From: a virus
Virus record (IMG/VR): IMGVR_UViG_3300043773_001779
Span: 1 to 40,226 of that record
Strand: one strand, 5' to 3'
DNA: 40,226 nt
The notes under the pieces are model-generated. The model was not told the DNA's origin. It saw only the letters and a list, made by a program, of their open reading frames with translations, and searched no databases. Both the position numbers and the translations under genes were made by a program. Positions within the stretch are counted from its first letter, which is position 1. Every line of letters begins with the position of its first letter. Below are positions 3,203 through 39,629 of this stretch, piece after piece.

Positions 3203-3209
3203 GGTAAAA
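3202..3209 (+). promoter_or_regulatory. GGGTAAAA motif (candidate late promoter)
   Basis: GGGTAAAA lies 41 nt before the ATG at 3243, and its first G is the last base of the upstream TAG stop. The promoter role is inferred from recurrence at fixed distance. Confidence 0.55.
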
Positions 3210-17470: not shown

Positions 17471-17510
17471 CCGTCTACACTTGTACTGTAGAATTGTTAC
17501 CCACACCCAT
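17471..17510. promoter_or_regulatory. Divergent promoter region
   Basis: This 40-base gap separates the minus-strand HNH-like gene from the plus-strand 126-residue gene. On the minus strand GGGTAACA (17502 to 17495) lies 32 nt before ATG 17470, a one-base variant of the recurrent motif. On the plus strand TAGAAT (17489-17494) is a weak -10 candidate. Confidence 0.35.
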
Positions 17511-26768: not shown

Positions 26769-28090
26769 TGGCCGGTTACTTAATCAATCCACAGGTTCAG
26801 GTCAAGTGGGGAGATCGAAATCTCTCCGCCTACACGCTTCCGGAATCAAAGTCGCCTCAGGCGATCGTCTTCAACACCAAGGTGGACATTTCCGGTGGTA
26901 GCTGGCCCACTGGCTCATTTAGCTGGAACCCCACAGGTCCCGCCTTCAAAGTGTATGAGGAATGCGTGACCAAAGGAAGGAACGAGATTATCACAATTCG
27001 TTTCTACTACGTGAATGGTCCGTATGTACTATTCAAGTTCCAGTACAACGGCTCAAGCATTAACTACGGCAAAGACATGTCGATTGAAGTCTCGTTGTCG
27101 TGTGAGCAAAGCGGCAAGAGCAATGGTGTGAGAGCGTCCGCGATGGACGACTACACTGACGGACGGTTTAACGCCAAGGGCAAGGATCTGTATGTGGCAG
27201 CAAAGGACATCCAAAAAGCATTCGGAAATCCGGTCCCAGTCCTGTGGTCCCAGGCTTCAAAAATTGACGCGAAGAAAATCTTTCTGGCTAGCTGGCAGTT
27301 CAAAGATCAAACGTTTGGAGCGGAAATCCTAAACATAGCCGCTCAAGCGGGACAGTCCGTTACCCTGAACAACATGTTCACGTCCGGGCAAGCCGCTCTC
27401 TTCCCACCTCTGTCAAAAGAGGGCAAGGATAAGGTGGACTCGGTGAAGTTTCCCCCAGGTCCGGGTGAAACAGTGAAGGCGGATCAGAGATACGGGTATC
27501 TCCTGGGCCCCGGCATTATCTCCTCATTCCAACGGTCAATGGAGTACCCTCCCCAGACTAAGGGTCAGAATAGTATCACGCAACCGACTGGAACGCCGAA
27601 CAAGTCTAAAACCATTAACGCGCCAGGTTCTCAGCCGCTATCAACCCAGCAGCAGCAAGATGAGGCGCAAAAACTGGCGAAGAAAAATGCGGTGGCAAAC
27701 CCCTCCTCTCCGACGGTCGTCAAGCAGAATAAATTCACGAAGAACGACGTAGGACCAGAAAATCAACAACTCATGCAGCAGGAGGAGGGGGTCAAGTTTC
27801 AAGCCGTTATCTTCATGTGTCCGTTGATGGTCGGTATCAAACCCGAGGACGTGATTTACATCGCCAGTCTCAAGACAGGCGACAAGCTCATTGAAGATTA
27901 CAAGGTGAAATCTGTTTCCTACGCCCAAGACGGCGGTATGGTGAATGTGAATGTCTCGGCGTGCCGCACCGCAGGCCTTGACCACCCAATGAACGAAGAG
28001 GCGGCCAAGAAATTCATGGAGAAGGCCGACGGTCTGAAAACCATTGAAGACTGGACGAACTATGCCTGGAAGGAGCGCCTGAAGCAGTAG
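26768..28090 (+). CDS. Probable baseplate hub / tail-tip protein
   Basis: This is a 440-residue protein. Residues 1-130 are beta-rich (INPQVQVKWGDRNLSAY, FSWNPTGPAFKVYEECV, EIITIRFYYVNGPYVLFKF). A middle domain of about 75 residues follows. Then comes a Gln/Pro/Lys-rich linker near 265-330 (STQQQQDEAQKLAKKN), and a C-terminal domain (FMCPLMVGIKPEDVIYIASL, DYKVKSVSYAQDGGMVNVNVS) of the type that closes hub proteins. It starts on the stop codon of the tape-measure gene, where hub or distal-tail genes usually lie. I cannot name the family. Its TAG stop is the beginning of a GGTGTTCT promoter box, so it ends the late operon. Confidence 0.6.
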   Translation: MAGYLINPQVQVKWGDRNLSAYTLPESKSPQAIVFNTKVDISGGSWPTGSFSWNPTGPAFKVYEECVTKGRNEIITIRFYYVNGPYVLFKFQYNGSSINYGKDMSIEVSLSCEQSGKSNGVRASAMDDYTDGRFNAKGKDLYVAAKDIQKAFGNPVPVLWSQASKIDAKKIFLASWQFKDQTFGAEILNIAAQAGQSVTLNNMFTSGQAALFPPLSKEGKDKVDSVKFPPGPGETVKADQRYGYLLGPGIISSFQRSMEYPPQTKGQNSITQPTGTPNKSKTINAPGSQPLSTQQQQDEAQKLAKKNAVANPSSPTVVKQNKFTKNDVGPENQQLMQQEEGVKFQAVIFMCPLMVGIKPEDVIYIASLKTGDKLIEDYKVKSVSYAQDGGMVNVNVSACRTAGLDHPMNEEAAKKFMEKADGLKTIEDWTNYAWKERLKQ

Positions 28091-28118
28091 GTGTTCTTTC
28101 AGCCGGATGTGGTATAAT
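28089..28118 (+). promoter_or_regulatory. GGTGTT-N17-TATAAT promoter
   Basis: AGGTGTTCT starts within the TAG stop of the upstream gene. GGTGTT (28090-28095) takes the -35 position, with 17 bases to TATAAT at 28113-28118. It drives the possible ssDNA-binding gene. Confidence 0.65.
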
Positions 28119-28125
28119 AAAAATG

Positions 28126-28161
28126 TTCCCGCTCGGAAGTATGTCCGGGACTTTACGGGAA
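28126..28161 (+). promoter_or_regulatory. Leader with two competing hairpins
   Basis: TTCCCG (28126-28131), at the expected 5' end of the transcript, can pair with CGGGA (28146-28150, using TCCCG) or with CGGGAA (28156-28161). The two pairings exclude each other. The other promoters of this class have leaders of about 15-18 nt; here it is about 60 nt. Confidence 0.4.
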
Positions 28162-28183
28162 TTTGCCCAAAGTTCTACTTGTC

Positions 28184-29143
28184 ATGAAGCAATTCAAAGT
28201 CAATCCCCAACTGGACGACAAAAACCGCGCTCGTCTCGAAGCTCGCAGCTACCAGAAAGCGTACACCGACGTTCCTAACCGGGCGCTCCCTCCTACCTAC
28301 AAGGAGGCACTGAGTGCTATCTACACCGGTCTCACAGGTAACGACCTGCCGGATGAAGGTTCCACCTTCACTGTACGCGCCGACGCCAACGGCACCTTCA
28401 AACGACTCTATTCCCCCACCGTGTTCTCCACTGAGGACAAGGGTCTCATCATTCGATGGGGCGACGAGGACATCGCTCTCAGCGTCGCTGACGGCAAACT
28501 GTCCGCTCCCAACGGTCAAAAGGGTCTGAAGCTGTCCTTCAAAGAGGACCAGATTGGCAAATACACCGAAGCAGTGCTGTCTGTGGCTTTCTCGGCTGGT
28601 GGCACACTCTTCTCCCTTCCGGTTCCCATCCGCTCCGCGGACTATGAGAATCGTGTCACCAGCGACATCCTCGATGTTCTGCTGAGTGAGAATCCGGAAG
28701 CCATCGCCGAACAGGTTGCTGTCGCAAGCGATCCTTCGAAGCGTGGCGAATCCACCGGTGAACGTCTGCAAGGACCGTTCGTCAAAGTGGCTCATATGCC
28801 TCTTGGCGAGTACAAGATCACCCAGTGTCGCTCGAAAGATAGCGACTATGGGATGCAGTACTACCTGCAGGCGATCGTCAACGAGCCCTTTACCGCTCCG
28901 ACCCGCGCGCAGGTCGATGGTGAGTGGGTCGACACTGAGGTCGAGGTTAGCGACTTCGTCGTCGTGAAACCCAACAACGCACTGAAGAAGGTGCTGGCCG
29001 CAGATCCGGAGATCACGCCGGACAAGCCCGCCTACCTCATCGTGAAAGAACATGGTGAGTGGAATGGCTTCGCCACCGCCAAGTGCGTGCTCAAGTGTTC
29101 AGCATTCGTCAAGGACGACGATTCGTTCGACATCGACTTCTGA
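28184..29143 (+). CDS. Possible ssDNA-binding protein (acidic C-terminal tail)
   Basis: This is a 319-residue protein. The ATG at 28184 is preferred over an in-frame TTG at 28163. The centre is beta-rich (GLIIRWGDEDIALSVADGKL, AVLSVAFSAGGTLFSLPVPI), and a second beta region spans about 205-300 (HMPLGEYKITQCRSKDS, EVEVSDFVVVKPNNALKKV). The C-terminus is DDDSFDIDF, very similar to the acidic, aromatic-ended tails of SSB and T7 gp2.5. With a neighbouring helicase and a middle-type promoter, an ssDNA-binding role is plausible but unproven. It has an unusually long leader of about 60 nt with alternative hairpins and is followed directly by a strong terminator, so it is a one-gene unit. Confidence 0.55.
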   Translation: MKQFKVNPQLDDKNRARLEARSYQKAYTDVPNRALPPTYKEALSAIYTGLTGNDLPDEGSTFTVRADANGTFKRLYSPTVFSTEDKGLIIRWGDEDIALSVADGKLSAPNGQKGLKLSFKEDQIGKYTEAVLSVAFSAGGTLFSLPVPIRSADYENRVTSDILDVLLSENPEAIAEQVAVASDPSKRGESTGERLQGPFVKVAHMPLGEYKITQCRSKDSDYGMQYYLQAIVNEPFTAPTRAQVDGEWVDTEVEVSDFVVVKPNNALKKVLAADPEITPDKPAYLIVKEHGEWNGFATAKCVLKCSAFVKDDDSFDIDF

Positions 29144-29151
29144 TCACCGCG

Positions 29152-29172
29152 GGGGAGCTTCGGCTCCCCTTT
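29152..29172 (+). terminator. Rho-independent terminator
   Basis: GGGGAGC-TTCG-GCTCCCC followed by TTT, with a UUCG tetraloop, 9 bases after the stop of the gene at 28184. It separates that gene from the helicase unit. Confidence 0.88.
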
Positions 29173-29178
29173 CTCGTC

Positions 29179-29184
29179 TATACT
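29179..29184 (+). promoter_or_regulatory. TATACT -10 box before the helicase gene
   Basis: It lies 24 nt before ATG 29208, giving a leader of about 17 nt. The -35 position falls inside the terminator hairpin and shows no consensus. Confidence 0.4.
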
Positions 29185-29207
29185 AATACCTGAAAGCCGA
29201 AACAACT

Positions 29208-31190
29208 ATGGCGGATCGCTACAGCGGAAATTCATTCACTGACCCACAGTCGGTAAGCATCGTCCAAGAAGCCAAAGAACGCAAGCCACGCGGTGAGCGT
29301 TTCAAGAAGGACAAGAAAAGCGAAGAACGCCCCACAGCGACAGCGCTGTCGGAACTCTACAGCAAAGGCGTCGCGCTTCTCAAATCAAACTTCTACACGG
29401 TGGAACTCTGCGAAGGTGCGGAGCACATCAATCATCGCATTCTGAAGCCTGCTCCCCCTCCGCCGGTGAAGGGCATCAACTATCCTGCCAGTTTCCAACC
29501 TCTCCAAGATATTTCCACTCTCGAGGATTTTGCCCGCATCGAGGCAGTTTTCGACGGTGCGGAGAGTGAGGTTCGAGATTTCTGGCAACCACTCTACCGC
29601 CCCAAAAGTGGAGAGAGCGATCTCTACGCATTCACCGATCGTCTGTTGAAGATGCGTCGGATTCAGTCTAATCAAAATATCCACGACGTCCTCGACTATG
29701 GTCAAACGTTTGACCCCGATGGGTCCCTCACCGGGAACCACTCAGTTCGCAATCCTCGTCTTTGGGTTCCTGCTCGGAAGTGGTTTGACCCTGTGCTTCA
29801 CGACGTTGGCCTTGAAGATGTCTTCACCATCTTCCCACACGCGGAACGCGAACTGCTCAAACTCATCCTCGGACGAGTTGGCGTGGGCCGAGCGAATCAT
29901 CTGCCGCCTGGATTCAGCACTCCCATAGACCACACTGCCCGAATGGCGGCAGTTGTCGTCGGCAAGGACGCAGGCCTCGGCAAGTCCACAGTGTTCAACG
30001 GCATGACCGCCGCTTTCTCGAAGTGTGGCTTCAACACTCACACATTCAAATCGACTGAAGACCGGTTCGGCATGAAAGCCGCTGCAACAGCAGACATCGC
30101 CTACAAAGATGACACCGCAATGAAGTCACTGCGTGTGTTCCTGTCGGCTGAGGAGACCAAAATCCTCATCACCAACGGTCTGTTCCAAACCGAGGAAAAA
30201 TTCCAAAACGCCGAGCAAATCTGGCCTCGGTGCACAATCATCGTAAACTCGAACGACTGGAATGCGAACTTTGCCTACGAGCTTGACCCGGGGATTATCG
30301 ATCGCATCAAGATCCTGTCAACCTATCGGGAGTACGAGGTCTTCAAGAATCAGAAGCACTTATCAGGCACTGCGTCGGAGGGTTCTCCGGACCTCAGGCC
30401 GCGTGCGCATATACCGTTTTTGGCCAACAAACTTGGCGTCTCTCAAGAGGCTCTTTACCTCTGGTGTCTCCGACTTGCCACTGACCGTTTCTGGGAGGTC
30501 ATCACGGACACTGAGGATCCGGCAATTAACCGGCTGCAGGTTGAAGTGCGGTACTGGACGACGCGGCAGAGGATTCGTTTCAAAGCGGACGTTTCACAAG
30601 CGCTCGTCAACGCGATGGCATTCGCACATGCCACACGTTCGGGGGTGGAATCGTATGAGATGCCGGAACTGACTCCTCAGATCCTCGCTGATCACCTACA
30701 ATCACTTTACTTCGTCGGTATCGATCCCAGTTGTGTCGATCTCATGTCGAAGATGAAGAAGCAGTGGGAAGCCGCTGGTCGACCGTCGACTCACTACTAT
30801 CAGGGTTTTCGTGAACTGCGGTGGGAGTCAGTGAAGAAGTGCCTCGAGTTCTACGGCGAGGAGGAGATGACGATGTATAACAACAAGACAGCTCCCGAAT
30901 TGGTAAAGACGATGATGGAGCGCATCGTAATGCGTGATGGCTTCAAAGTCGGCGGTGGCATGACCTATGTCATCGAGAATTGGGAGAACACTCGTCACGC
31001 AGAGGGTGAAATCCTCGAGGAGGCCGCGTTCCTCCTCGACACAATGGACACACAAGACCGAGAGCGTCTACTTAATCCAGCATCTAAACCTTACGACGAA
31101 TGGCTCAACAATCAGAAATACTCACCAGACCGGGCCGAGAAGATCCGTCGTCAGGCGAAAGAGAAGGTCTATGGAGGGGTAAAATCATGA
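29208..31190 (+). CDS. Replicative helicase/NTPase, SF3/D5-like
   Basis: This is a 660-residue protein. Residues 1-45 are basic and disordered. The ATPase core begins near residue 205. Walker A is VVVGKDAGLGKSTVF (252-263), with a Walker B-like TADIAYKDDT (295-303). A sensor-1-like TIIVNSND sits at 343-350, and an Arg that may serve as finger is R366 in GIIDRIKIL. This layout fits the phage D5/P4-type helicases that unwind DNA at the fork. No primase zinc or TOPRIM motif is visible in the N-terminal half, so primase activity cannot be claimed. A TATACT box lies about 25 nt upstream of the ATG. The last codons contain a GGGTAAAA sequence and overlap the next start. Confidence 0.78.
   Translation: MADRYSGNSFTDPQSVSIVQEAKERKPRGERFKKDKKSEERPTATALSELYSKGVALLKSNFYTVELCEGAEHINHRILKPAPPPPVKGINYPASFQPLQDISTLEDFARIEAVFDGAESEVRDFWQPLYRPKSGESDLYAFTDRLLKMRRIQSNQNIHDVLDYGQTFDPDGSLTGNHSVRNPRLWVPARKWFDPVLHDVGLEDVFTIFPHAERELLKLILGRVGVGRANHLPPGFSTPIDHTARMAAVVVGKDAGLGKSTVFNGMTAAFSKCGFNTHTFKSTEDRFGMKAAATADIAYKDDTAMKSLRVFLSAEETKILITNGLFQTEEKFQNAEQIWPRCTIIVNSNDWNANFAYELDPGIIDRIKILSTYREYEVFKNQKHLSGTASEGSPDLRPRAHIPFLANKLGVSQEALYLWCLRLATDRFWEVITDTEDPAINRLQVEVRYWTTRQRIRFKADVSQALVNAMAFAHATRSGVESYEMPELTPQILADHLQSLYFVGIDPSCVDLMSKMKKQWEAAGRPSTHYYQGFRELRWESVKKCLEFYGEEEMTMYNNKTAPELVKTMMERIVMRDGFKVGGGMTYVIENWENTRHAEGEILEEAAFLLDTMDTQDRERLLNPASKPYDEWLNNQKYSPDRAEKIRRQAKEKVYGGVKS
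31177..31184 (+). promoter_or_regulatory. GGGTAAAA motif at helicase 3' end
   Basis: It lies in the last codons of the helicase gene, only 10 nt before ATG 31187. It is too close for the usual leader, so it may be a chance match or serve the gene at 31570. Confidence 0.25.
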
Positions 31191-31570
31191 TGACAATCAC
31201 TGACCAAACCCCAGACATTGTGGACGCATTCACCTACGAGTCGCAGAAGCAACTGCGGCTGAAACAGCAGCTCGAGTCCGAAGGATTCACCTGCATTGAC
31301 GACCCAGCGGGACTCGCGGACAAGATCGGTACCGTCCAGGATGTCGAGGTTCACTGCTCGATGTTCACCCCTCGTCTTCTCTGCAAACTCTACGCGAAGG
31401 GTTGCGAACAACTTGAGCACAGTTTCTTCCTCGTGCCTTACTGGCAAATCGTGAAGTGGCTCTACCTTCTGCCTAAGGAGAGCGAAACCTTCACTGGACG
31501 CTTCATCATCGGAGTGCGGCGAGTCTCCGAGAATGGCTACGTTCCCTCGCTCCGTCTTCCTTTGGGCTGA
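31187..31570 (+). CDS. Unknown protein
   Basis: This is a 127-residue protein from ATG 31187, which overlaps the helicase stop (ATGA); the second Met at 31190 is an alternative. It is mainly helical at first (YESQKQLRLKQQLESEGFTC). A mixed domain follows (VEVHCSMFTPRLLCKLYAKG, FFLVPYWQIVKWLYLLPKE), then a beta end (FTGRFIIGVRRVSENGY). I do not recognise it. Co-translation with the helicase suggests a replication-related role, which remains a guess. The in-frame upstream ATG at 31100 lies inside the helicase gene. Confidence 0.6.
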   Translation: MMTITDQTPDIVDAFTYESQKQLRLKQQLESEGFTCIDDPAGLADKIGTVQDVEVHCSMFTPRLLCKLYAKGCEQLEHSFFLVPYWQIVKWLYLLPKESETFTGRFIIGVRRVSENGYVPSLRLPLG

Positions 31571-31788
31571 TGAGTAACCTTTCTTCGGGTGTTCCAGCAG
31601 ATCAGGATGGGGGAGACTCCGTCCGTCGTTACTTCGGTGACTTCTCCTTCGAGGCGAAGAACAAAGTGGGTAACATGCTTGAAGACATCGCCAAATATCC
31701 GAAGAGCGGCGGTTATCTCACCCCTCGAACTAAGCAACAGAAGAACCCGCACACAAGCGGCGATGCGTTCTTCCCCTCAGCCTCCTAA
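31570..31788 (+). CDS. Small unknown protein
   Basis: This is a 72-residue protein starting on the last base of the previous stop. It has an acidic/Gly start (GVPADQDGGDSVRRYFGDF), one central helix (EAKNKVGNMLEDIAKYP) and a basic, probably disordered end (TPRTKQQKNPHTSG). The function is unknown. The overlap and codon-dense spacing argue that it is a real gene of the helicase operon. Confidence 0.55.
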   Translation: MSNLSSGVPADQDGGDSVRRYFGDFSFEAKNKVGNMLEDIAKYPKSGGYLTPRTKQQKNPHTSGDAFFPSAS

Positions 31789-31791
31789 ACC

Positions 31792-32307
31792 ATGCCAAAG
31801 TCACAGCCGCTAAAAGACCCGGCTGCTTTTCTCAAGGACCTAGTCAGTGGGAAGGGCGAGTCTCAACAATATGCCACCGCGTTCTATGGGGCCAACCTGA
31901 CATTTGACCCGAACGAGCACGCCCACTCCGACACACACTCCGACACCCTCGGGCTCCTCGGCCATCTCGCTCAAGAAGACGCGAAGTACAGAAAGCTCAT
32001 CACATTTCTGTGCCATGGCGACGTTGTCTCCGATGTTTATCGATTCAAAGAGTACTTTGGATTGGTCGGAGTCTTTGCGTACGTCCGTAAAGACGCGGAG
32101 GGCTTTAGGGTCACCTTTTGTTTCCCGTTGATCAACGCAAATCGTTTCCATGTTGACGTAGAGATTCTGAGTCATATGGCTCTCCACTGGGCAAAGATCG
32201 CCCGCAAGGACACCGTGTCCGTGAGAGTTTTTATCGACCAGGCTTTTCTCCGCTGGGAGGACATGGAAGAGGAAAATCTCCTCTTCACCGAGTTCGAGTC
32301 CGACTAA
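31792..32307 (+). CDS. Unknown protein
   Basis: This is a 171-residue protein with no family match that I know. The first 50 residues include a His/Asp-rich stretch (NEHAHSDTHSDT) that could bind metal. The rest is an alpha/beta domain (RKLITFLCHGDVVSDVYRF, GLVGVFAYVRKDAEGFRVTF, DTVSVRVFIDQAFL) ending in an acidic tail (EEENLLFTEFESD). It is the last gene of the helicase unit: its TAA directly abuts a GGTGTTCT promoter box. Confidence 0.6.
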   Translation: MPKSQPLKDPAAFLKDLVSGKGESQQYATAFYGANLTFDPNEHAHSDTHSDTLGLLGHLAQEDAKYRKLITFLCHGDVVSDVYRFKEYFGLVGVFAYVRKDAEGFRVTFCFPLINANRFHVDVEILSHMALHWAKIARKDTVSVRVFIDQAFLRWEDMEEENLLFTEFESD

Positions 32308-32337
32308 GGTGTTCTGTCACCTTGGGACTGCTAAATT
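32306..32337 (+). promoter_or_regulatory. GGTGTT-N18-TAAATT promoter
   Basis: GGTGTTCT directly follows the TAA of the upstream gene, with TAAATT 18 bases after GGTGTT. The leader to ATG 32359 would be about 15 nt. It is the weakest -10 of the class. Confidence 0.45.
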
Positions 32338-32358
32338 AAACAAAGCCACTCATCTCTC

Positions 32359-32604
32359 ATGAAAGCAGGCGACATGACCCTCGGCGAAGTTCGCCGTCTG
32401 GCGGCCGGAATCGAGGAACTCAATCTCACCCTCTCCTTCATTCAGGTGGAAGAAGGACTTTTGGAACTCGAGGCGTGTTGGGACGGCTTTCGTGACGCAG
32501 CAAACCACTTCGGTCAGGAATTCGATGACAAACGAGATTGTGCAGTTCAATTTGGACTTTCCGTCGCAGACTTCTACGAGTTTTCTGAACTCGTATCTCG
32601 ATAA
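32359..32604 (+). CDS. Small acidic unknown protein
   Basis: This is an 81-residue helical protein (LGEVRRLAAGIEELNLTLSF, EEGLLELEACWDGFRDAANHF). The start at 32359 lies about 15 nt after the expected transcription start of the GGTGTTCT/TAAATT promoter; Met-6 is an alternative. Its 3' third overlaps the dCMP deaminase gene by 80 bases in another frame, which suggests translational coupling. Function unknown. Confidence 0.55.
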   Translation: MKAGDMTLGEVRRLAAGIEELNLTLSFIQVEEGLLELEACWDGFRDAANHFGQEFDDKRDCAVQFGLSVADFYEFSELVSR

Positions 32605-33061
32605 GTGGGACCGAAGATTTCTCCGCATTGCCCACGAGGTGAAAACGTGGAGTAAGGATCCCGGAACCACAGTTGGTTGCGTCATCGTCAAAGACAAGCG
32701 CATCATCGCGACCGGATACAACGGCTTTCCGGCCAATCTCTCCGATTCGCTCCCGCTGTATCAGGATCGTGACTACAAACTCGCGATCACAATACACGCC
32801 GAGAAGAACGCTCTGTTCAACGCGGCAAAAAACGGAGCACTCACTGAGGGGTGTTCCGCATACGTAACATTTCCTCCCTGTAGTCAGTGCGCTGCAGCCC
32901 TGATTCAGGCGGGAGTGAAATTCGTGTTCTGCCCAGATCCAAGGATGGCACCGGAGCGGTGGCAGAAGTCTTTCAAAACGGCTGGTGACATTCTCGCCGA
33001 AGCCGGGGTGAAAACCTTGTACTATTCTGAGGCTGACCTCTATGGAGACCAGACAGTGTGA
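32525..33061 (+). CDS. dCMP deaminase (deoxycytidylate deaminase)
   Basis: This is a 178-residue zinc enzyme converting dCMP to dUMP, the substrate of ThyX encoded at 19012. Zinc is held by H91 with catalytic E93 (TIHAEKNAL) and by C119/C122 (PPCSQCAAAL). The DPGTTVGCVIVKD and GYNGFPA segments are typical of the family, as is the helix DKWDRRFLRIAHEVKTWS. The ATG at 32525 is preferred; a GTG at 32492 would extend the protein by 11 unconserved residues into the overlapping gene. It ends inside the next small gene. Confidence 0.92.
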   Translation: MTNEIVQFNLDFPSQTSTSFLNSYLDKWDRRFLRIAHEVKTWSKDPGTTVGCVIVKDKRIIATGYNGFPANLSDSLPLYQDRDYKLAITIHAEKNALFNAAKNGALTEGCSAYVTFPPCSQCAAALIQAGVKFVFCPDPRMAPERWQKSFKTAGDILAEAGVKTLYYSEADLYGDQTV

Positions 33062-33266
33062 GACTTGCGGTGCACGTTGGATGGGCGGGCAACACTATTG
33101 GACGACCGGGAAACCAGGAAACGAACTTGATTTGGCCGGTCTCGTCTGCAATCGCCTCCCTTCTGACAAACCCTGCGCCAACCCTTTGAGAGGAATGGAG
33201 GGTGGTCAGACATGGGAGTCGAGAATGAGAGAAGTAGACAAAGCATTGGAAAGAGGCGGGATATAA
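33042..33266 (+). CDS. Small Cys-rich, probable zinc-binding protein
   Basis: This is a 74-residue protein overlapping the end of the deaminase gene by 20 bases. Two Cys pairs, C6-x2-C9 (QCETCGARW) and C36-x8-C45 (VCNRLPSDKPC), together with a His in GGQHYW, resemble a zinc ribbon. The last 25 residues are helical (WESRMREVDKALERGG). Similar small Cys-rich proteins occur in cyanophages without known function. A nucleic-acid or protein adaptor role is possible. Confidence 0.6.
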   Translation: METRQCETCGARWMGGQHYWTTGKPGNELDLAGLVCNRLPSDKPCANPLRGMEGGQTWESRMREVDKALERGGI

Positions 33267-33315
33267 GCCAGTTCGTGAACTGTCACAATCTATCACGGTA
33301 GACCCTTCAATGTTG

Positions 33316-33321
33316 TATAAT
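33316..33321 (+). promoter_or_regulatory. TATAAT -10 box before the sigma gene
   Basis: A perfect TATAAT 28 nt before ATG 33349. No GGTGT box or TTGACA-like -35 is visible 16-18 bases upstream. The inverted repeat AGTTC-GT-GAACT at 33271-33282 lies nearby. Confidence 0.5.
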
Positions 33322-33348
33322 AAGATATGTAAGCCAACCAAACAACAA

Positions 33349-33957
33349 ATGGCCAACCTAACCCGTGAGCAGGAACTTGACCTCGTTGCCCGGACAAAAC
33401 TGGGTGATCGACGTGCGACTACCGAACTCATCCGTAAGTATGAGCCACTCATTCATAAGTATGCCCGGAAGTACGGCTGGATGGCTCCTTCTCACAGCTA
33501 CGAGGATCTCGTCCAGGAAGGGCGCCTCGCCGTCTATCGCGCCGCCCTCGCCTTTGAGCCCGAGCGTGGCTTCCGCTTCCTGACCCTCGCGTTCGCCTAC
33601 GTTCGTGGTGGAGTGCAGGGCCTGGCTCGTCGTGAGTATCGTCACCCTCGCTACACTACTTCAGTGGAGCAGAACGATCTCGCTAAGCGCCTTGAGGATA
33701 CCAATCAAATCCAAGAGTTGAAGATGGATACTCCCACTGAGAAGGTTCTCAATATGATGAACACCATCTGTGGTGGTCTCGAGACGAAACGCGCTCAGAT
33801 TCTGTGTGACAAGTTCGGCCTTTTCGGTCGCAAGGAGCTCCGTAATGTGGAGATCGCCGAGAAGTACGGTCTGACCAAACAAGCTGTGCAGTCCTATATC
33901 GTGAAATTCCGCAATCGGGCTCGTAAGCTGTATCCTGAACTGGAGGCCTACGTCTGA
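33349..33957 (+). CDS. Phage RNA polymerase sigma factor (sigma-70 family)
   Basis: This is a 202-residue protein from ATG 33349; an in-frame ATG at 33310 lies upstream of the -10 box's expected transcription start. Region 2 covers about residues 20-95: LIRKYEPLIHKYARKYGW, then YEDLVQEGRLAVYRAALAF and FLTLAFAYVRGGVQGLARR. Region 4, a helix-turn-helix, covers about 145-197 (VEIAEKYGLTKQAVQSYIVKF). It is small like T4 gp55, the late sigma, but keeps a recognisable region 4. It should redirect host RNA polymerase to phage promoters; GGGTAAAA is the candidate target. A TATAAT box lies 28 nt before the ATG. Confidence 0.88.
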   Translation: MANLTREQELDLVARTKLGDRRATTELIRKYEPLIHKYARKYGWMAPSHSYEDLVQEGRLAVYRAALAFEPERGFRFLTLAFAYVRGGVQGLARREYRHPRYTTSVEQNDLAKRLEDTNQIQELKMDTPTEKVLNMMNTICGGLETKRAQILCDKFGLFGRKELRNVEIAEKYGLTKQAVQSYIVKFRNRARKLYPELEAYV

Positions 33958-34157
33958 TGAAAGTCAACAAGCGTGCACTGCTTGAGCGATGCATCGAGGA
34001 TGGGCTACGTGACGGTTGGCGACGAGCCCACAAACACGTCGAGCAACCGACCGAAGCGGGCATGAGGGAACGCATGTGGGACGCCATCTGGCTGCACATC
34101 GATGAATACTTTGAGTTCGAAACTACCAATGACACTAACTGTAACCAAAATCTTTGA
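33957..34157 (+). CDS. Small basic unknown protein
   Basis: This is a 66-residue protein starting on the sigma gene's stop (TGATG). It is helical and charged: NKRALLERCIEDGLRDGWRRA, HKHVEQPTEAGM, then MWDAIWLHIDEYFEFET. Similar short proteins with this GW-RAHKH layout are found in cyanophages, without a known role. Its end overlaps the thioredoxin-like gene by 29 bases. Coupled expression with the sigma factor is likely. Confidence 0.6.
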   Translation: MKVNKRALLERCIEDGLRDGWRRAHKHVEQPTEAGMRERMWDAIWLHIDEYFEFETTNDTNCNQNL

Positions 34158-34488
34158 CTACGACTGCCCAGTGTGCAGTTTCATGGGCGCTTTTGACGGT
34201 AAGGTCATCTTTGACCTGGAGCCGTCGACGAACATGAAAGCGCTGCCTCTTGAGAAAATCCTCGATAGAAATAACGAGGATCCCTTTGAGTGCCTGATTG
34301 CTCAGTATACCGAACGGTACGCCTGTAACGACGATTACACCATCGACCTCCCGGTGTATATCTTGACGCAGGGTAAAAAATATGTTGGACATGTTGGCGG
34401 TGAACACTCCCAACAATCGCTGAAAACCCAACTTCAAGAGCTTGTCAGAAATGCGACGGATTCGGAGGGTGAGCGTAGCTCCAACTAA
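34129..34488 (+). CDS. Thioredoxin-like protein with CPVC motif
   Basis: This is a 119-residue protein; ATG 34129 is chosen because the beta strand TVTKIFDYDCPVC follows directly. The redox pair C13-P-V-C16 sits where thioredoxin has WCGPC. The cis-Pro equivalent is P75 in TIDLPVYILT, followed by GKKYVGHVGG and a final helix (LKTQLQELVRN). The middle region differs from classic thioredoxin and includes Cys at about 55 and 66. It may reduce ribonucleotide reductase, as T4 NrdC does, or another target. The CxxC motif and cis-Pro are seen; the partner is unknown. Confidence 0.7.
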   Translation: MTLTVTKIFDYDCPVCSFMGAFDGKVIFDLEPSTNMKALPLEKILDRNNEDPFECLIAQYTERYACNDDYTIDLPVYILTQGKKYVGHVGGEHSQQSLKTQLQELVRNATDSEGERSSN

Positions 34489-34645
34489 GGGGGGTCTCTT
34501 CGAGAACGCCTTCGTTTTTGATGAGACTGAGAGCGAGATGGAAGTCCTTCTCGCCGACGATGAGCACTTTGAGGTGCTCACTTTTGACAAGGATTCTCTT
34601 GTCAGCACGTGCGGGAAATATCAGATTCCGCACATTGAACTTTGA
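34451..34645 (+). CDS. Small acidic unknown protein
   Basis: This is a 64-residue protein overlapping the end of the thioredoxin-like gene by 38 bases. The start is uncertain: ATG 34451 is used here, TTG 34442 or GTG 34469 are possible, and GGAGG directly abuts the GTG. The body is an acidic beta domain (FENAFVFDETESEMEVLLAD, FEVLTFDKDSLV). Function unknown. It sits between the redox protein and speD in the same tightly packed unit. Confidence 0.5.
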   Translation: MRRIRRVSVAPTKGGLFENAFVFDETESEMEVLLADDEHFEVLTFDKDSLVSTCGKYQIPHIEL

Positions 34646-34666
34646 TCTTTTGGGAGCTTTTGTGAA

Positions 34667-35017
34667 TTGGAAAGACGAGGTGAGAGTCTGGGGCGACACG
34701 CCTTAGCCCATATCAGCGGTGCAAACTTCGCTGATTTGAATGATGAGCAGAAACTGCTCTCAGCGTTTAAACGCACCGTACTAAACTTTCATCTCGAGGC
34801 GCTGTACGAGCCTCAAATTCATAAATTCAACCCCCAAGGCATCACAGGCATAGTTTTGCTAGCTGAGTCCCACATCAGCATTCACACGTGGCCCGAGCGT
34901 GGTGAGGCTGCCGTTGATGTGTTTACGTGTGGCACTCACGACTCACGGCAAATTGTTGAGTTTTTCTGCTCTGCAATCACGCAATCCCATGTCTCAGTTA
35001 TGGTGGTGGAGCGATGA
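34667..35017 (+). CDS. speD: S-adenosylmethionine decarboxylase proenzyme
   Basis: This is a 116-residue prokaryote-type SpeD. Self-cleavage should occur between E67 and S68 (LLAESHISIHTWPE), making the pyruvoyl group. H73 and C88 lie 5 and 20 residues beyond S68, the same spacing as S63/H68/C83 of the Thermotoga enzyme. The N-terminus LGRHALAHISG matches the family start. Translation must begin at TTG 34667, since a stop lies at 34643 and no ATG or GTG comes before the LGRH motif; GGGAG ten bases upstream supports it. The enzyme makes decarboxylated AdoMet for polyamines and is a known cyanophage auxiliary gene. Confidence 0.93.
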   Translation: MERRGESLGRHALAHISGANFADLNDEQKLLSAFKRTVLNFHLEALYEPQIHKFNPQGITGIVLLAESHISIHTWPERGEAAVDVFTCGTHDSRQIVEFFCSAITQSHVSVMVVER

Positions 35018-35151
35018 CCAGCAGAAAGAAACTCGTCAAACGAGCACTCAAGCACCCATCACTCTACAGCCCTGCCGAACTCGAATTCTTCAAGTTCTGG
35101 CTTCAGAAGAAAAAAGCCGCAAAGAAAGCGAAAAAGAAAGCCCAGGATTGA
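35014..35151 (+). CDS. Lys-rich 45-residue unknown protein
   Basis: This short gene starts with ATGA overlapping the speD stop. The protein is strongly basic. It begins RKKLVKRALKHPSLYSPAEL, followed by an EFFKFWLQKKKAAKKAKKKA helix. I recall small Lys-rich proteins with the KRALKHP-LY-PAEL pattern in T4-like cyanophages, which supports a real gene, but no function is known. Nucleic-acid binding is possible from charge alone. Its TGA is followed directly by the GGTGTACT box that precedes hli. Confidence 0.65.
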   Translation: MTSRKKLVKRALKHPSLYSPAELEFFKFWLQKKKAAKKAKKKAQD

Positions 35152-35191
35152 GGTGTACTTAGGTTAACAGTTGTTACACTATTGGTGTACT
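35151..35191 (+). promoter_or_regulatory. GGTGTA-N17-TACACT promoter with second box, before hli
   Basis: AGGTGTACT directly follows the TGA at 35149-35151, and TACACT is at 35175-35180. A second GGTGTACT at 35184-35191 has no matching -10 and may be a duplicated regulatory site. Confidence 0.55.
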
Positions 35192-35204
35192 ACGCAGCTC
35201 ACTT

Positions 35205-35423
35205 GTGACTGTTACCTCCAATGATCGCGGCCAACAGAACATGTGGGCACGTGAACCTCAAATGTATCTTGATCCCTCCGCTGAACAACAAATGAAAGAC
35301 GGCATCTACGAGACTCACAACGAGCGTGCTGAGCGACTGAACGGTCGCGTGTGCATGGTTGGGTTTACGGCTGGCATTATCAGCTATGTTTTAACCGGCA
35401 CTCTCGGATTTGGTCTCTTCTGA
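35205..35423 (+). CDS. hli: High-light-inducible protein (Hli)
   Basis: This is a 72-residue protein, single-span and related to chlorophyll-binding light-harvesting proteins. The chlorophyll-binding helix begins with ERLNGRVCMVGF at residues 43-54, followed by TAGIISYVLTGTLGFGLF. The usual A in NGRxAM is replaced by C here. The N-terminal 40 residues are acidic and probably stromal. In cyanophages Hli protects photosystems during infection. The GTG at 35205 lies about 18 nt after the predicted transcription start; ATG 35241 (residue 13) is the alternative, and neither has a clear ribosome binding site. Confidence 0.92.
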   Translation: MTVTSNDRGQQNMWAREPQMYLDPSAEQQMKDGIYETHNERAERLNGRVCMVGFTAGIISYVLTGTLGFGLF

Positions 35424-36046
35424 TGCTCTGTCTCACCGACGCAAACCCCGACACAATCTGCCAGCTGTTGACCGACACTCACGACTGGCAAACCCTCAGC
35501 GACGAACTCATCGCTGTGGCCAAGGGGAGAGTGAAGGTGAAGGCAATGGAAGAGCATCACATCGAGCCAGCGAGGGAGGAGATCATCTTTCTCTTCCCTC
35601 TTGAACACCTCGCGATTCACATCTGTGAAGCGAAGCTATTCCCGAGCGACTCCTCTCACGCCAAAGTCGGGGCATTCGTAAAACCATTCCCCGGATCTTA
35701 TCGCAGGATTGTCGCCCTCCCAGACGAGGCACACGATCTCGTCCTATCCTTCGGTCAGACCCGTCCCTCAAAGACAGTCGAGGAGATGACCCGAATCGCC
35801 AACCTCCCTCAAGCAAAGCTCGCCCAACAGGAAACTGGGAAGCGAACAGGAGCGGAGAATGGAAAAAAGTCTGCACCAAAAGTGTCGGCGAAACTCAAAG
35901 GGAGAGAAATTACCTGGAGCGAGAAAATCTCCTCGGAAATCTTGGCCCGTGGGGTGTACATCTGCGAGAAGTGTGGCAAACAAATGAAAGACATTCCGGG
36001 TAACATCCTCCAACATCAACGCAGTCCCCGATGTATACCACAATGA
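35423..36046 (+). CDS. HNH homing-type endonuclease with C-terminal zinc finger
   Basis: This is a 207-residue protein from ATG 35423, which overlaps the hli stop. The frame upstream of that point lies within hli. The HNH core is seen at HH45-46 (MEEHHIEPA) and PLEHLAIHICEAKL (H62, H66), as in phage HNH nucleases with HHI-P and EH--aH. A basic linker follows (GKRTGAENGKKSAPKVSAKLKG). The C-terminus forms a C181-C184-H198-C204 finger (YICEKCGKQM, then NILQHQ--PRC), typical DNA-recognition baggage of homing enzymes. It is free-standing between hli and tiny ORFs, so it may be a mobile insertion. Its catalytic Asn is not obvious. Confidence 0.72.
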   Translation: MLCLTDANPDTICQLLTDTHDWQTLSDELIAVAKGRVKVKAMEEHHIEPAREEIIFLFPLEHLAIHICEAKLFPSDSSHAKVGAFVKPFPGSYRRIVALPDEAHDLVLSFGQTRPSKTVEEMTRIANLPQAKLAQQETGKRTGAENGKKSAPKVSAKLKGREITWSEKISSEILARGVYICEKCGKQMKDIPGNILQHQRSPRCIPQ

Positions 36047-36129
36047 CACCTTTGATTTTTACTGTCACCTCGGTCGCCTTCTTTGTGCTTCTGGCATACT
36101 CGATCAATCAACTGTCCGAGACTTACTGA
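36043..36129 (+). CDS. 28-residue single-span membrane peptide
   Basis: A very short frame starts with ATGA overlapping the HNH stop and ends one base before the next ATG. It encodes one hydrophobic segment (LIFTVTSVAFFVLLAYSI) followed by NQLSETY. Size and topology recall the tiny subunits of cyanobacterial photosystems and cytochrome b6f, or small phage membrane peptides. I see no specific match to any of these. Placement and overlap support translation. Confidence 0.5.
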   Translation: MTPLIFTVTSVAFFVLLAYSINQLSETY

Positions 36130-36130
36130 A

Positions 36131-36442
36131 ATGGACCAAGCCAATCCGACCGAAATCTGGTGGCCCCGCCCCTCCGCTCTTGACGACATGACCGTGTCGT
36201 TCACTGATCAGGAAGACGGCTCCTCCATCATCCATCTCGACGCCCCCGATGGTACCGAGTGTGCGGATTGGCTAGACTATTTCAACGAGACTGAGGAACG
36301 CAAGGCGGCTTTCGAGCGAGCCTTCATCCAGTCTCTCCTTGATCAAATCACAATGCTTGAAAATGGCAAAACCCAAGGGATCCCTGACGAACAAAGCGGA
36401 AATCACCCCAGTGGTGAAGAAGACGTCACAGGGACGGTCTAA
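36131..36442 (+). CDS. Unknown acidic protein
   Basis: This is a 103-residue protein from ATG 36131, one base after the preceding stop; the upstream in-frame ATG at 36083 is inside the membrane peptide gene. It is acidic throughout: EIWWPRPSALDDMTVSF, a beta strand (SSIIHLDAPDG), a helix (WLDYFNETEERKAAFERAF) and an acidic tail (GIPDEQSGNHPSGEEDV). Function unknown. Its last 80 bases overlap the small basic gene below in another frame. Confidence 0.6.
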   Translation: MDQANPTEIWWPRPSALDDMTVSFTDQEDGSSIIHLDAPDGTECADWLDYFNETEERKAAFERAFIQSLLDQITMLENGKTQGIPDEQSGNHPSGEEDVTGTV

Positions 36443-36509
36443 GAACACCAACCTTGCAGCCACCTCCCGCAATGCGCGCAAAAAGCGTTACAGGGGACAG
36501 GGGCTCTGA
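36363..36509 (+). CDS. 48-residue basic protein overlapping its neighbour
   Basis: A short frame starts at ATG 36363 inside the 3' part of the acidic 103-residue gene and runs 67 bases beyond it. The protein is very basic (AKPKGSLTNKAEI, VVKKTSQGRSKNTN, SRNARKKRYRGQGL). Its TGA directly abuts a GGGTAAAA motif at 36510, the same stop/promoter arrangement seen after known genes, which supports this reading frame. Nucleic-acid binding is possible from charge; function unknown. Confidence 0.5.
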   Translation: MAKPKGSLTNKAEITPVVKKTSQGRSKNTNLAATSRNARKKRYRGQGL

Positions 36510-36517
36510 GGGTAAAA
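36510..36517 (+). promoter_or_regulatory. GGGTAAAA motif (candidate late promoter)
   Basis: It directly follows the TGA of the 48-residue basic gene and lies 30 nt before the first exported-protein gene. Confidence 0.55.
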
Positions 36518-36539
36518 TCGACTATCAACTTGGTTACTT

Positions 36540-36953
36540 ATGAAGCGCTTAGCACTTCTGGCAACCACTGTCCTGTTCGCAGGCGCAAGCAACGCGGCTG
36601 AGATTCGTAACTCGATCACACATAGCATTCAACTCAAAGTCGCCCCCCAGGTGGTTGTAAGCACTCCCACCGCAGACAGCTACAGCGTGAGCGGAAGCAA
36701 CGTTGATGTCACAACACTGGGGAAGATCGGAACCGCCGGTTCCTATGCCATTGACACGAATGGCGCCGCTTTCAGTTTCACTGAGACTGAACTGACGGCT
36801 GGAACCACTACCACCACCCAGTCTGGTGGAACCGCCGGAAACTTGGCAGGAACCATCAACACGACCGCTGGTGGCTCTCTGACAGTCACCGCTGGTGGGT
36901 CCGGTTCGGAGGCCATCGGTCAAACCGCTATTGAGTTGAGCGTCTTCCAGTGA
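36540..36953 (+). CDS. Exported protein with Sec signal peptide (copy 1)
   Basis: This is a 137-residue protein. The signal peptide MKRLALLATTVLFAGASNA is expected to be cut before AEI. The mature part is Thr/Ser/Gly-rich, with SITHSIQLKVAPQ, then DSYSVSGSNVDV and AAFSFTETELTAGT. The YSVSG-NV-V and F-FTET motifs recur in the next gene, showing a tandem duplication. I recall similar proteins in cyanophages and cyanobacteria, without known function. A periplasmic or surface role during infection is the natural inference. The start follows a GGGTAAAA motif by 30 nt. Confidence 0.7.
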   Translation: MKRLALLATTVLFAGASNAAEIRNSITHSIQLKVAPQVVVSTPTADSYSVSGSNVDVTTLGKIGTAGSYAIDTNGAAFSFTETELTAGTTTTTQSGGTAGNLAGTINTTAGGSLTVTAGGSGSEAIGQTAIELSVFQ

Positions 36954-37309
36954 AAAATCTCCTAGTGGCTCTTATGCTGCTAGGTCTCCCTGTGGGGGTG
37001 GCGGCTCAGACTGTCACCCCCAATTTTACTAGGGGCACTGTAGATAGCACAACCACAACAAAAACTACCGTCACCGAGAGTATCTACCAGATTGACTACT
37101 CAACTGGATACTCTTACAGCGTGACCGGAACTAACATCAACATTCCCGGCAAACCTCAAGAAGGAGCAGCGTACAGCATTCAGACCCAGGGAGCTCCGTT
37201 TCAATTTAGTGAAACTATCATGCGACCTGGGGTCGCGAAAGAAACATGGGTCGATCGAACTACCGTTCAGGAATCCTTTACGCAATCGCTCTCTGTCTTC
37301 ACCCAGTGA
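36950..37309 (+). CDS. Exported protein with Sec signal peptide (copy 2)
   Basis: This is a 119-residue paralogue of the gene before it, read from GTG 36950 (GTGA overlap). The signal peptide MKNLLVALMLLGLPVGVAA is expected to be cut before QTV. The mature domain shares YSYSVTGTNINIPG, then AAYSIQTQGAPFQFSETIM and the final SLSVFTQ with copy 1 (IELSVFQ). Function unknown. Tandem exported paralogues with matched overlaps suggest they act together. Its end overlaps the third exported gene by 64 bases. Confidence 0.7.
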   Translation: MKNLLVALMLLGLPVGVAAQTVTPNFTRGTVDSTTTTKTTVTESIYQIDYSTGYSYSVTGTNINIPGKPQEGAAYSIQTQGAPFQFSETIMRPGVAKETWVDRTTVQESFTQSLSVFTQ

Positions 37310-37821
37310 GTGTTCTGGCTCAGGAGAAGCCTGTTACCAACATCGCTGCACCTCAAGCGTCGTCCAGCGGAAGTGTCGTTAACCAGGGCGTTCAAGTGTT
37401 GAATGGTCCCTACATGCAGCAGATTTATGGTGGAGGGGTGGCCTGTCAGACATCCTCTTTGGCAATGACTCCGTTCATCAGCAGCATGGCCAATTATCCG
37501 TGGGACCCCACTCAGTACGGGGCTCACACACTCAGTCCGGGGATGGCGATGACAATGAATTTCCCGTTAGACGGGGGCGCCGTGGAGTTGTGTAAGGAGC
37601 GGGCGAGAGTAGAAATTGACCGCTACAGAGCCGAAGCCGCGAAGGCCAAGCTCGATTTTGAATTGGTTCGTTTGTTGAAGTGTGGGGAGGCGATTAAGTC
37701 GGGAGTGTCATTTCATCCCAAGTCGCCCTACGCGGCAGTCTGCGCCGACATAGTCGTCAGCCCAAGGCAATCCGTGCCGACAGTCGTCGCGCCATCTTCT
37801 TCGGTGGTGCGAAGTAATTAA
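37246..37821 (+). CDS. Third exported protein, unrelated to the first two
   Basis: This is a 191-residue protein. ATG 37246 is kept despite the 64-base overlap because it supplies a signal peptide (SGILYAIALCLHPVSVLA, cut before QEK); a later start would remove it. The mature part has NQGVQVLNGPYMQQIYGGG, a CQT segment, a central hydrophobic stretch (LSPGMAMTMNFPLDGGA) and a charged helix (CKERARVEIDRYRAEAAKAKL). Four Cys could form disulphides in the periplasm. Function unknown. Its 3' end overlaps the convergent proline-rich gene by 65 bases. Confidence 0.65.
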   Translation: MGRSNYRSGILYAIALCLHPVSVLAQEKPVTNIAAPQASSSGSVVNQGVQVLNGPYMQQIYGGGVACQTSSLAMTPFISSMANYPWDPTQYGAHTLSPGMAMTMNFPLDGGAVELCKERARVEIDRYRAEAAKAKLDFELVRLLKCGEAIKSGVSFHPKSPYAAVCADIVVSPRQSVPTVVAPSSSVVRSN

Positions 37822-38566
37822 ATCGTTTGGCGCCCTCTCTGCTGAACATGTCACGGATGGGTTCGTCGATGACAATCTTATGATCGGCCTCGTAGAGTTC
37901 GTCCGATTCCACTGTGTCGCGGAGAAATTGCTCAGGGTTGGTTATGCGAGTCGCGAGAGTTCGAACTCCCTCGCTGGAATACTCAAGCACGGTTATTTCA
38001 CCACTTTCACAGATCATGTGAATCACAGGCTTAACGGCACGAAGTTTGATTTTGAATTTCTCTCTCACCGCCTTCGTCGCAGCCTCACCCACGACCCTAC
38101 GCGCTTGGTTGAATACCAGCGCAGTTGCCAGCGTCACGGATGTTCCAACGATCGCCGTGACTGAAGCCTGAGCGACCTCCTGCACGCCTGGGATTTTGAT
38201 GTCATGACCGACGACTGAAATGACGGTCCCCGTTGTGGGTTGTTCGACGGGAATTACAGGGACAGGCGGAGGAGGCGGAGGTACTGCAGGAATTGGAGGT
38301 GGGGACGGAGGAAGATTTCGGTTCGCGTCCGGTTTCTCTTTTGCCGGTTCTGCAGGTCTTTGCGGCGTTGGAGTCCCAATGGAAGGAGGCACGAAAATGG
38401 TGGGATACTCCAAAGTCGGCCGGGGGATGTCCACCACCGGCCGCGGGATGATGAGTTGAGGGAGATCCGGCCGTTCGGTAATGGGGGGCGGCAATCGGTC
38501 CACAACTGACGGCTCAACCCTTGGGATGCGGGCGCCACCAATATCTATTTTGGTGATCTTTTCCAT
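37757..38566 (-). CDS. Proline-rich virion/membrane protein
   Basis: This is a 269-residue protein. Residues 1-115 are extended and Pro-rich (PRPVVDIPRPTLEYPTIFVPP, a PPPPPPVP run near 96-104), beginning with KIDIGGARIPRV. A hydrophobic helix follows at about 131-153 (VAQASVTAIVGTSVTLATAL), then a basic stretch (QARRVVGEAATKAVREKFKIKL). The last 100 residues form an alpha/beta domain (MICESGEITVLEYSSEG). Virion proteins of cyanomyoviruses share the VDIGVARIPEV-like start, the Pro-rich part and one hydrophobic segment, so a structural role is likely. It is one of three minus-strand genes and shares its 5' region with the divergent gene at 38617. Confidence 0.68.
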   Translation of the reverse strand: MEKITKIDIGGARIPRVEPSVVDRLPPPITERPDLPQLIIPRPVVDIPRPTLEYPTIFVPPSIGTPTPQRPAEPAKEKPDANRNLPPSPPPIPAVPPPPPPVPVIPVEQPTTGTVISVVGHDIKIPGVQEVAQASVTAIVGTSVTLATALVFNQARRVVGEAATKAVREKFKIKLRAVKPVIHMICESGEITVLEYSSEGVRTLATRITNPEQFLRDTVESDELYEADHKIVIDEPIRDMFSREGAKRFNYFAPPKKMARRLSARIALG

Positions 38567-38573
38567 ATCTCAC

Positions 38574-38591
38574 TTTTACCCGTGGGTAAAA
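38574..38591. promoter_or_regulatory. Divergent GGGTAAAA pair in an 18-bp inverted repeat
   Basis: TTTTACCC-GT-GGGTAAAA. The plus copy is 33 nt before ATG 38617. The minus copy is only 15 nt before the minus-strand ATG at 38566, which would give a leaderless or nearly leaderless mRNA if it is used. Confidence 0.5.
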
Positions 38592-38616
38592 ACCAATCAC
38601 GGAACACGCTACTCTC

Positions 38617-39408
38617 ATGTCCAACTTGGGCGGCTTCTCTGAAGAAGCTCTTCAACTTTTTCAACTCGCTGCTTCTGAGCAAGGGTACGAATTTAGTGAG
38701 AAAGAAGAGAATTATGACTTTTCCCGCTGTGTAAGGCCAGATGGGAGCGCATATGGAACGGGGGGAACTTGCCGGAAAGGCTCTCAGCAAGAAAAATCCC
38801 CGTCGGAAAAATTGAAGGAAGCGTCGGCTAATAACCCGGCTGTGGCGCGTCGCGAAAAAGACAAAAAACTTGCTGCAGAAAAGACCCGAGCAATGTACGA
38901 GCGCTCAGCTCAGCGTAGGGCAGAAGACGATCGACAAAAGAATATCTCTGACGCGAAAGCCCGCGTTAAAGAAATCCAGGAAGAAATTAAGAATCGCGGC
39001 CCTCACTCAAAAGAGGAAAAGGCTGACTTGGCCCGACAACTGAAAATGGCCCAAAATAGCCTGAATCGTTTCGAGACGGGAAAGGCGATGACCCGCGAAC
39101 AATTTCAGACTGGTCTGAAGAAAATGTCTGCCAAGCAAGAGGAAGCCGCCAAAGCAAAAAGTCCGGCCGTCGTGAAAGAAAAACTGACTAAGCAAGAAGA
39201 GGCCATGGATCGCCTGGCAAAAGAAATCCGGGGTCAAGACGGACCTGCCAGGTACCAGCAGATCGAGAATTACAAGGCTCTCCATAAGGAAATTCTGGAG
39301 TCCCGCAAACGTCTTAATTACGGCCCCGGCAACCGTCCAGACCTGGGCGGAAAATACAAAGACCCCAACGACATTAACAAACAGTACGACGACCTTAAAA
39401 TCGACTAA
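38617..39408 (+). CDS. Coiled-coil protein with CxRPDGS motif
   Basis: This is a 263-residue protein. The first 35 residues are a folded helical stretch. The motif FSRCVRPDGSAYGTGGTCRKG at about 35-55 has two Cys and is recurrent in cyanophage structural and hypothetical proteins. The rest is highly charged and helical with strong coiled-coil character (DAKARVKEIQEEIKNRG, KLTKQEEAMDRLAKEIRG), ending in a Gly/Pro/Asp tail (NYGPGNRPDLGGKYKDP). A virion or scaffold-like role is possible; this is inference. It follows a GGGTAAAA motif by 33 nt. Confidence 0.68.
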   Translation: MSNLGGFSEEALQLFQLAASEQGYEFSEKEENYDFSRCVRPDGSAYGTGGTCRKGSQQEKSPSEKLKEASANNPAVARREKDKKLAAEKTRAMYERSAQRRAEDDRQKNISDAKARVKEIQEEIKNRGPHSKEEKADLARQLKMAQNSLNRFETGKAMTREQFQTGLKKMSAKQEEAAKAKSPAVVKEKLTKQEEAMDRLAKEIRGQDGPARYQQIENYKALHKEILESRKRLNYGPGNRPDLGGKYKDPNDINKQYDDLKID

Positions 39409-39411
39409 ACC

Positions 39412-39600
39412 ATGACATTTCTCACAGTTCTCGCCGCGTCGTTCCTCGGCCAACTCGGCGCCTTGTGGATCATCGGCACTTTAGCCTATAGGCAACAGGA
39501 AAAGAAAGCAGAGGCTATTCAGAAAGCTTTCGAGCAAACAGTGAAAGAGATGGAAGAAAGGGAAATTAGGATGCGCGAGTACGCACGCATGGAAAGCTAA
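39412..39600 (+). CDS. Small membrane-anchored coiled-coil protein
   Basis: This is a 62-residue protein three bases after the previous stop. The N-terminal hydrophobic helix (LTVLAASFLGQLGALWIIGTL) is followed by a charged helix (RQQEKKAEAIQKAFEQTVKE, MEEREIRMREYA). The likely topology is a membrane anchor with a cytoplasmic coiled coil. Function unknown. Co-transcription with the larger coiled-coil gene suggests a shared role. Its TAA directly abuts the GGTGTACT box of the next transcript. Confidence 0.65.
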   Translation: MTFLTVLAASFLGQLGALWIIGTLAYRQQEKKAEAIQKAFEQTVKEMEEREIRMREYARMES

Positions 39601-39629
39601 GGTGTACTAGACCCCGACTATGTTATAAT
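39599..39629 (+). promoter_or_regulatory. GGTGTA-N17-TATAAT promoter
   Basis: GGTGTACT directly follows the TAA ending at 39600, and TATAAT is at 39624-39629. It drives the truncated MNIF-family gene at 39654. Confidence 0.65.

Follow-up and report, generated by a model that had tools for sequence, protein, structure and literature searches.

The early promoters of bacteriophage T4 carry the hexamer GTTTAC at -36 to -31 (PMC1524935) and are read by the host sigma-70 (PMC1524935; PMC5780444), and in the T4-like phages RB49, RB43 and Aeh1 the early promoters prefer a G at -33 (PMC1524935). T4 middle promoters have a fixed distance to the -10, an extended -10 and an upstream box that is weakly TTGACA-like (PMC1524935), and T4-like cyanophages were reported to be without T4-like middle promoters and motA and/or asiA (PMC5780444). 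T4 late promoters show no conservation of a -35 (PMC2988020). In this study we looked at the virus record IMGVR_UViG_3300043773_001779, a fragment of an uncultured cyanobacterial virus whose entire 40 kb length (40,226 nucleotides (nt), hereafter the window) was analyzed, and at the octamer GGTGTWCT, which precedes -10-like boxes at four sites, A to D, on its + strand. The evidence is computational throughout, and both promoter activity and pre-late timing are inferred from sequence. The analysis indicates that GGTGTWCT is a real promoter element, a local and diverged allele of a pre-late promoter class, RGTTTAC-N16/17-TATA[AC]T, that runs through the whole group of related phages. Our preferred reading, which we place just on the probable side, is that this -35-region element has drifted in the window lineage, that its promoters have gained the extended -10 motif TGn and that they are most likely read by SigA, the primary sigma factor of the host.

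All four sites share one build. Site A (28090-28118) has the box GGTGTTCT (28090-28097), TGG as extended -10 and TATAAT (28113-28118); site B (32308-32337) has GGTGTTCT (32308-32315), TGC and a weak -10, TAAATT (32332-32337); site C (35152-35180) has GGTGTACT (35152-35159), TGT and TACACT (35175-35180); and site D (39601-39629) has GGTGTACT (39601-39608), TGT and TATAAT (39624-39629). The gap from GGTGTW to the -10 is 17 nt at sites A, C and D and 18 nt at site B. A preliminary description of the window had already placed four GGTGTWCT sites within one or two bases of these positions, with the same spacings and with metabolic or replication-type genes downstream, and all of this is borne out. 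It had also called the downstream boxes TATAAT-like: each of the four is -10-like and in register with its box, but only two, at sites A and D, are perfect. The TGn motif at all four sites was missing from it, as were a fifth site at 17453 and a second GGTGTACT at 35184.

Boxes A to D sit in short spacers, abutting or overlapping the stop codon of the preceding gene. Site A precedes the phrog_25892 gene and the DNA primase gene (together 28220-31190, + strand; the former ends at 29143, its start not being fixed, and the primase spans 29208-31190). Site B precedes a small gene (32359-32604), the dCMP deaminase gene (to 33061; the pair 32359-33061, +) and then a sigma factor gene; site C precedes the high-light-inducible gene hli (35205-35423, +), whose S-CBWM1 ortholog encodes the high light inducible protein; and site D precedes a Pyr_excise-like gene (39654-40226, +) at the contig end. 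The window contains 11 copies of GGTGTWCT where 2.1 would be expected, and the pair of GGTGTWCT and, after N15/16, a -10 with at least four matches occurs four times on the + strand and never on the - strand. Among 1500 dinucleotide shuffles no pair was found in 1435 and one pair in 65.

The window record is a relative of Synechococcus phage S-CBWM1: its primase and sigma factor are 54% and 42% identical to those of that phage, and the gene order near sites A to D is similar. A megablast search for near-identical phages found none. The records compared are mostly fragments, S-CBWM1 being complete, and gene calls are simple open reading frames. Searching the relatives for GGTGTNCT with a loosely set spacer gave few matches, and therefore orthologous sites were compared instead, by reading the four junctions in about 20 relatives with the downstream genes as anchors. 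It was found that nearly all relatives with a recognisable promoter at these junctions have RGTTTAC, a spacer of 16-17 nt and TATAAT or TATACT; junction B, in many relatives, is without a promoter at this position. At site A, G004 has GGTGTTCT-N15-TATAAT, G001, G002 and G003 have GGTTTAC, and the others have AGTTTAC. At the site B junction G003 shows AGTTTACC-TATACT and G001 shows AGTGTCCT-TACAAT, and at site C the box of G001 is the same as in the window, that of G003 is GGTTTACC and more distant relatives have AGTTTAC. Near relatives at site D range from GGTGTAC (G001, L080) and GGTGTTC (L078, L079) through GGTATAC (L081) to GGTTTAC (L082, G003), and L076, whose downstream protein is 96% identical, has GGTTGAT. 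The exact octamer is thus not a fixed, group-wide signal: in close relatives its place is taken by GGTTTAC, GGTTTCC, GGTATAC or GGTTGAT. The variants in the window itself are GTGTAC, GTGTTC and GTTTCC, and the GTTTAC element proper is seen at the orthologous sites of the relatives; since these carry GTTTAC at the same four junctions, GGTGTWCT is best explained as a diverged GTTTAC allele.

The GTTTAC class can also be found directly. Exact GTTTAC-N14..18-TATAMT has 58 matches in 13 of 20 records (a slight overcount, as near-identical sites recur in G012 and G013), all matches of a contig falling on the same strand, against one match in the reversed control. TTTAC is enriched 16, 17 and 18 nt before TATAMT on the coding strand, with no peak on the other strand. 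The spacer from GTTTAC to the -10 in the relatives is N16 in 25 cases, N17 in 18 and N18 in 7; measured in the same way, it is 16, 17, 16 and 16 at sites A to D. Among the first genes after these promoters, which were mostly recognised by inspecting their opening residues, are phrog_25892, primase, mazG, hli, psbA and an hsp20-like gene, and in many cases the start codon follows the -10 at a distance of 20-25 nt; the gene at G003 1881 resembles a tail gene. The class as a whole thus appears to precede replication, nucleotide and photosynthesis genes and not virion genes. S-CBWM1 has two clear sites, both N17, one of them upstream of psbA, and no GTTTAC class with the same pattern was found in S-PM2, Syn9, Mic1 or Ma-LMM01.

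The extended -10 sets the window apart from these relatives. TGn is present at four of four sites A to D but at only 4 of 60 GTTTAC promoters of the relatives, and the association of the variant box with TGn at sites A to D has a Fisher p of 3e-6 in a hand-compiled table that ignores kinship. Because TGn is found at all four sites and yet is rare in the GTTTAC relatives, we suggest that the drifted -35 is offset by TGn.

Two phage sigma factors bear on the question of the reader. Sigma-1 (33349-33957, +) is conserved across the group and consists of region 2, a disordered linker and region 4, with no region 3, as both the alignment and an AlphaFold2 model (mean predicted local distance difference test score 80; residues 99-127 mostly disordered) indicate; the recognition helix of its region 4 differs from that of sigma-70. 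A TATAAT lies just upstream of its gene in the window (33316-33321, +) without a GGTGTWCT box, and the sigma-1 promoter of the relatives mostly consists of a hairpin and then TTTAC or TTGCC in the ordinary 17 nt register. The G+C-rich hairpin, for example GGCGGTAAACCGCC, runs straight into the -35 region in L011-L018, L021, L023, L024 and G003, an arrangement that looks like a terminator-promoter composite. Sigma-2, represented by S-CBWM1 gp045 (L024 24153-24878) and orthologs throughout the group, has region 2, but its C-terminus shows no region 4. In S-CBWM1 the ortholog of the site D gene is gp147, followed by gp148, gp149, nrdB and nrdA, and the sigma-2 gene stands behind nrdA in this run; from this order we infer that the site D gene through sigma-2 would form one transcript.

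Sigma-2 is a candidate late sigma. Of all 8-mers in the group, GGGTAAAA has the strongest strand bias, with 149 copies against 4 in 17 contigs and 33 against 1 in S-CBWM1, and this bias was not seen in S-PM2, Syn9, P-SSM2, S-TIM5 or T4. Its 144 distinct sites show no upstream conservation and no -35, which suggests a late-promoter-like class with a T4-late-like build. In the window it occurs at 3202-3209 (+) and at 6587, 12761, 14399, 15357, 20786, 31177, 34371, 36510 and 38584. The copies of the left arm, which holds the tail genes, lie mostly before those genes; the right arm holds primase, dCMP deaminase, the sigma factor, S-adenosylmethionine decarboxylase and hli. As GGTGTWCT had been introduced as a "second promoter class", GGGTAAAA may be the other class that this title implied.

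A mechanism that fits these data begins with the drift of the box from GTTTAC to GTGTWC and the gain of TGn. Host RNA polymerase with SigA would read the boxes as a degenerate -35, and the weakened box would be offset by TGn contacts, which need region 3 of a sigma factor. The class would then turn on replication, nucleotide and photosynthesis genes together with, judging by how the genes are ordered in S-CBWM1, the operon containing the second sigma, which in turn would read the late promoters GGGTAAAA. SigA is favoured as the reader because of the T4 early box, the TGn pattern, the association of variant boxes with TGn and the position of site B upstream of sigma-1, which calls for a promoter usable before sigma-1 exists; and as sigma-1 has no region 3, a sigma that reads TGn would be that of the host. 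Several results weigh against this reading. Inside the clade of the window alone the Fisher test of box and TGn gives p = 0.20, and kinship was ignored overall. Site E (17453-17481, +; GGTTTCC-N16-TACACT), which lies upstream of a gene that immediately precedes the DNA polymerase exonuclease gene and has orthologs in G002 (GGTGTAC), G003, G004 and G016, has neither GTGTWC nor TGn. The spacing differs from that of T4, where it is N18, and TTTACN therefore lies only 15-16 nt from the -10 here. Finally, ten picocyanobacterial genomes gave one match to the GTTTAC-TATAMT class against five in the control; this absence is not decisive, because TTGACA-TATAMT is equally rare in the same ten genomes (one match, control two).

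The serious rival to SigA is sigma-1 itself. Its region 4 could read the box, so that the sites would form a phage-sigma-dependent middle class, with SigA first making sigma-1 from a differently built promoter; we regard this as possible, though tentative. It agrees with the conservation of sigma-1, with a recognition helix that differs from that of sigma-70, with a sigma-1 promoter that is built differently in the relatives, and with a box class that is prominent in the phages but lacking in the ten host-like genomes. Moreover, with sigma-2 lacking region 4 and GGGTAAAA lacking a -35, the phase that uses a -35 is left for sigma-1. Yet sigma-1 is without the TGn-reading region 3 while TGn is present at every one of sites A to D, and site B lies upstream of its own gene in the window. 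Nor was covariation of the recognition helix with the change from GTTTAC to GTGTWC seen: no matching change separates the window and G001 from the GTTTAC users, two of which (L015 and L017) have Q where the window sigma-1 has Q. The GC-rich relatives G005 and G006 have a changed helix but showed no clear box class and no clear position-specific box enrichment. A GCTCAC box in these two was considered as proof of covariation between box and reader and was rejected, with one GCTCAC-N-TATRAT match in G005, none in G006 and one in the control. The same idea can be extended into a three-step cascade, in which SigA would make sigma-1, sigma-1, with regions 2 and 4 only, would read the RGTTTAC/GGTGTWCT promoters of replication genes, photosynthesis genes and the sigma-2 operon, and sigma-2 would read GGGTAAAA, box and reader drifting together in the group; this fuller scheme we find doubtful.

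Another option is that a phage or host DNA-binding activator sits on GGTGTWCT and recruits sigma-70 RNA polymerase in the manner of MotA. T4 middle promoters need both MotA and AsiA. Neither the MotA family (PF09114) nor the AsiA family (PF09010) had a match in the window, in seven relatives or in S-CBWM1, while the T4 controls were found with E = 3e-63 and E = 2e-43, respectively, and no other candidate was identified. The fixed distance to the -10, the extended -10 and a box weakly like TTGACA are traits common to T4 middle promoters (PMC1524935), but the box is placed in the -35 region and changes between close relatives in the way of a -35 hexamer, not of a fixed protein site, and we consider an activator improbable. 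Identity with a T4 middle, MotA-type promoter was rejected as these families were not found, and this part of the preliminary description is not supported, the commoner box at the orthologous sites being GTTTAC, the T4 early -35 motif. What stands of its proposal of host sigma-70 promoters with a phage-specific -35 is a distinct class with a phage-specific -35 region and a sigma-70-like -10. That the signal is chance or a by-product of the frequent Gly-Val codon pair GGT GTW can nearly be dismissed: GGTGTW is overrepresented across the window and six of the eleven octamers (153, 8298, 16424 and three on the - strand) have no -10 in register, but each of sites A to D comes directly after a stop codon, all four are on the same strand and paired with a correctly spaced -10, and the relatives have promoter boxes at the orthologous positions.

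The hli promoter has features of its own. The second GGTGTACT (35184-35191, +) directly follows the -10 of site C. It was considered as a -35 and rejected, because there is no -10 downstream of it, and it is part of a conserved hli leader. G003, G001 and L078 all keep this leader element, G003 despite having GGTTTACC as its -35 box. In S-CBWM1 a comparable stretch, CATAAAGGTGTACTTCGC, is present near 30508. Between box and -10 the hli promoters of the window (35163-35179), L014, L015 and G001 contain a paired repeat, GTTAACAGTTGTTACAC in the window and TTTACAAAACTTTACATT in L014, which resembles the cyanobacterial high-light element HLR1 that is bound by RpaB. Given this repeat, RpaB of the host may put phage hli under light control. 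Since no sites other than those of hli showed the paired repeat, RpaB/HLR1 was rejected as a general meaning of GTTTAC.

The S-CBWM1-like group would thus have a promoter vocabulary that can be read off the sequence, with RGTTTAC-N16/17-TATA[AC]T as its pre-late class and GGGTAAAA as its late class, and since the group has a cultured member in S-CBWM1 this model is open to testing. In the window lineage several unlinked sites combine a decaying -35 box with an extended -10, likely a natural compensation inside one promoter class.

Compared with known systems, the late-type signal resembles the T4 late promoters and gp55 in having a -10-like motif without a -35, in preceding tail genes and in going together with a phage sigma that lacks region 4, while the motif is TATAAATA in T4 and GGGTAAAA here. 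T4 middle promoters share with the window an extended -10 (at sites A to D, absent from site E) and an upstream element other than TTGACA, but their MotA box, TGCTT, lies at -30 to -27, whereas the window element lies in the -35 region and is unrelated in sequence. Sites A to D are also similar to sigma-70 extended -10 promoters, with TGn before the -10 and a poor -35, except that the window sites retain a conserved phage-specific box in the -35 region. With the T4 early promoters the group shares the GTTTAC box (in the relatives), a sigma-70-like -10, a location before pre-late genes and a box that drifts between phages, and several T4 GTTTAC sites have the TGTGGTATAAT -10 that is present at window site A. 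The drifted G of the window GTGTAC lies one base further upstream than in the GTTGAC of T4-like phages, the hosts here are cyanobacteria, and the spacer is 16-17 nt (some 18) against 18 in T4, where 10 of 11 GTTTAC matches within N14-21 are N18, plus scattered single matches. Because of this spacer the class is not simply a T4 early promoter; the GGTGTWCT sites are best described as a drifted form of the GTTTAC box that appears to work in the style of a T4 early promoter, in another register.

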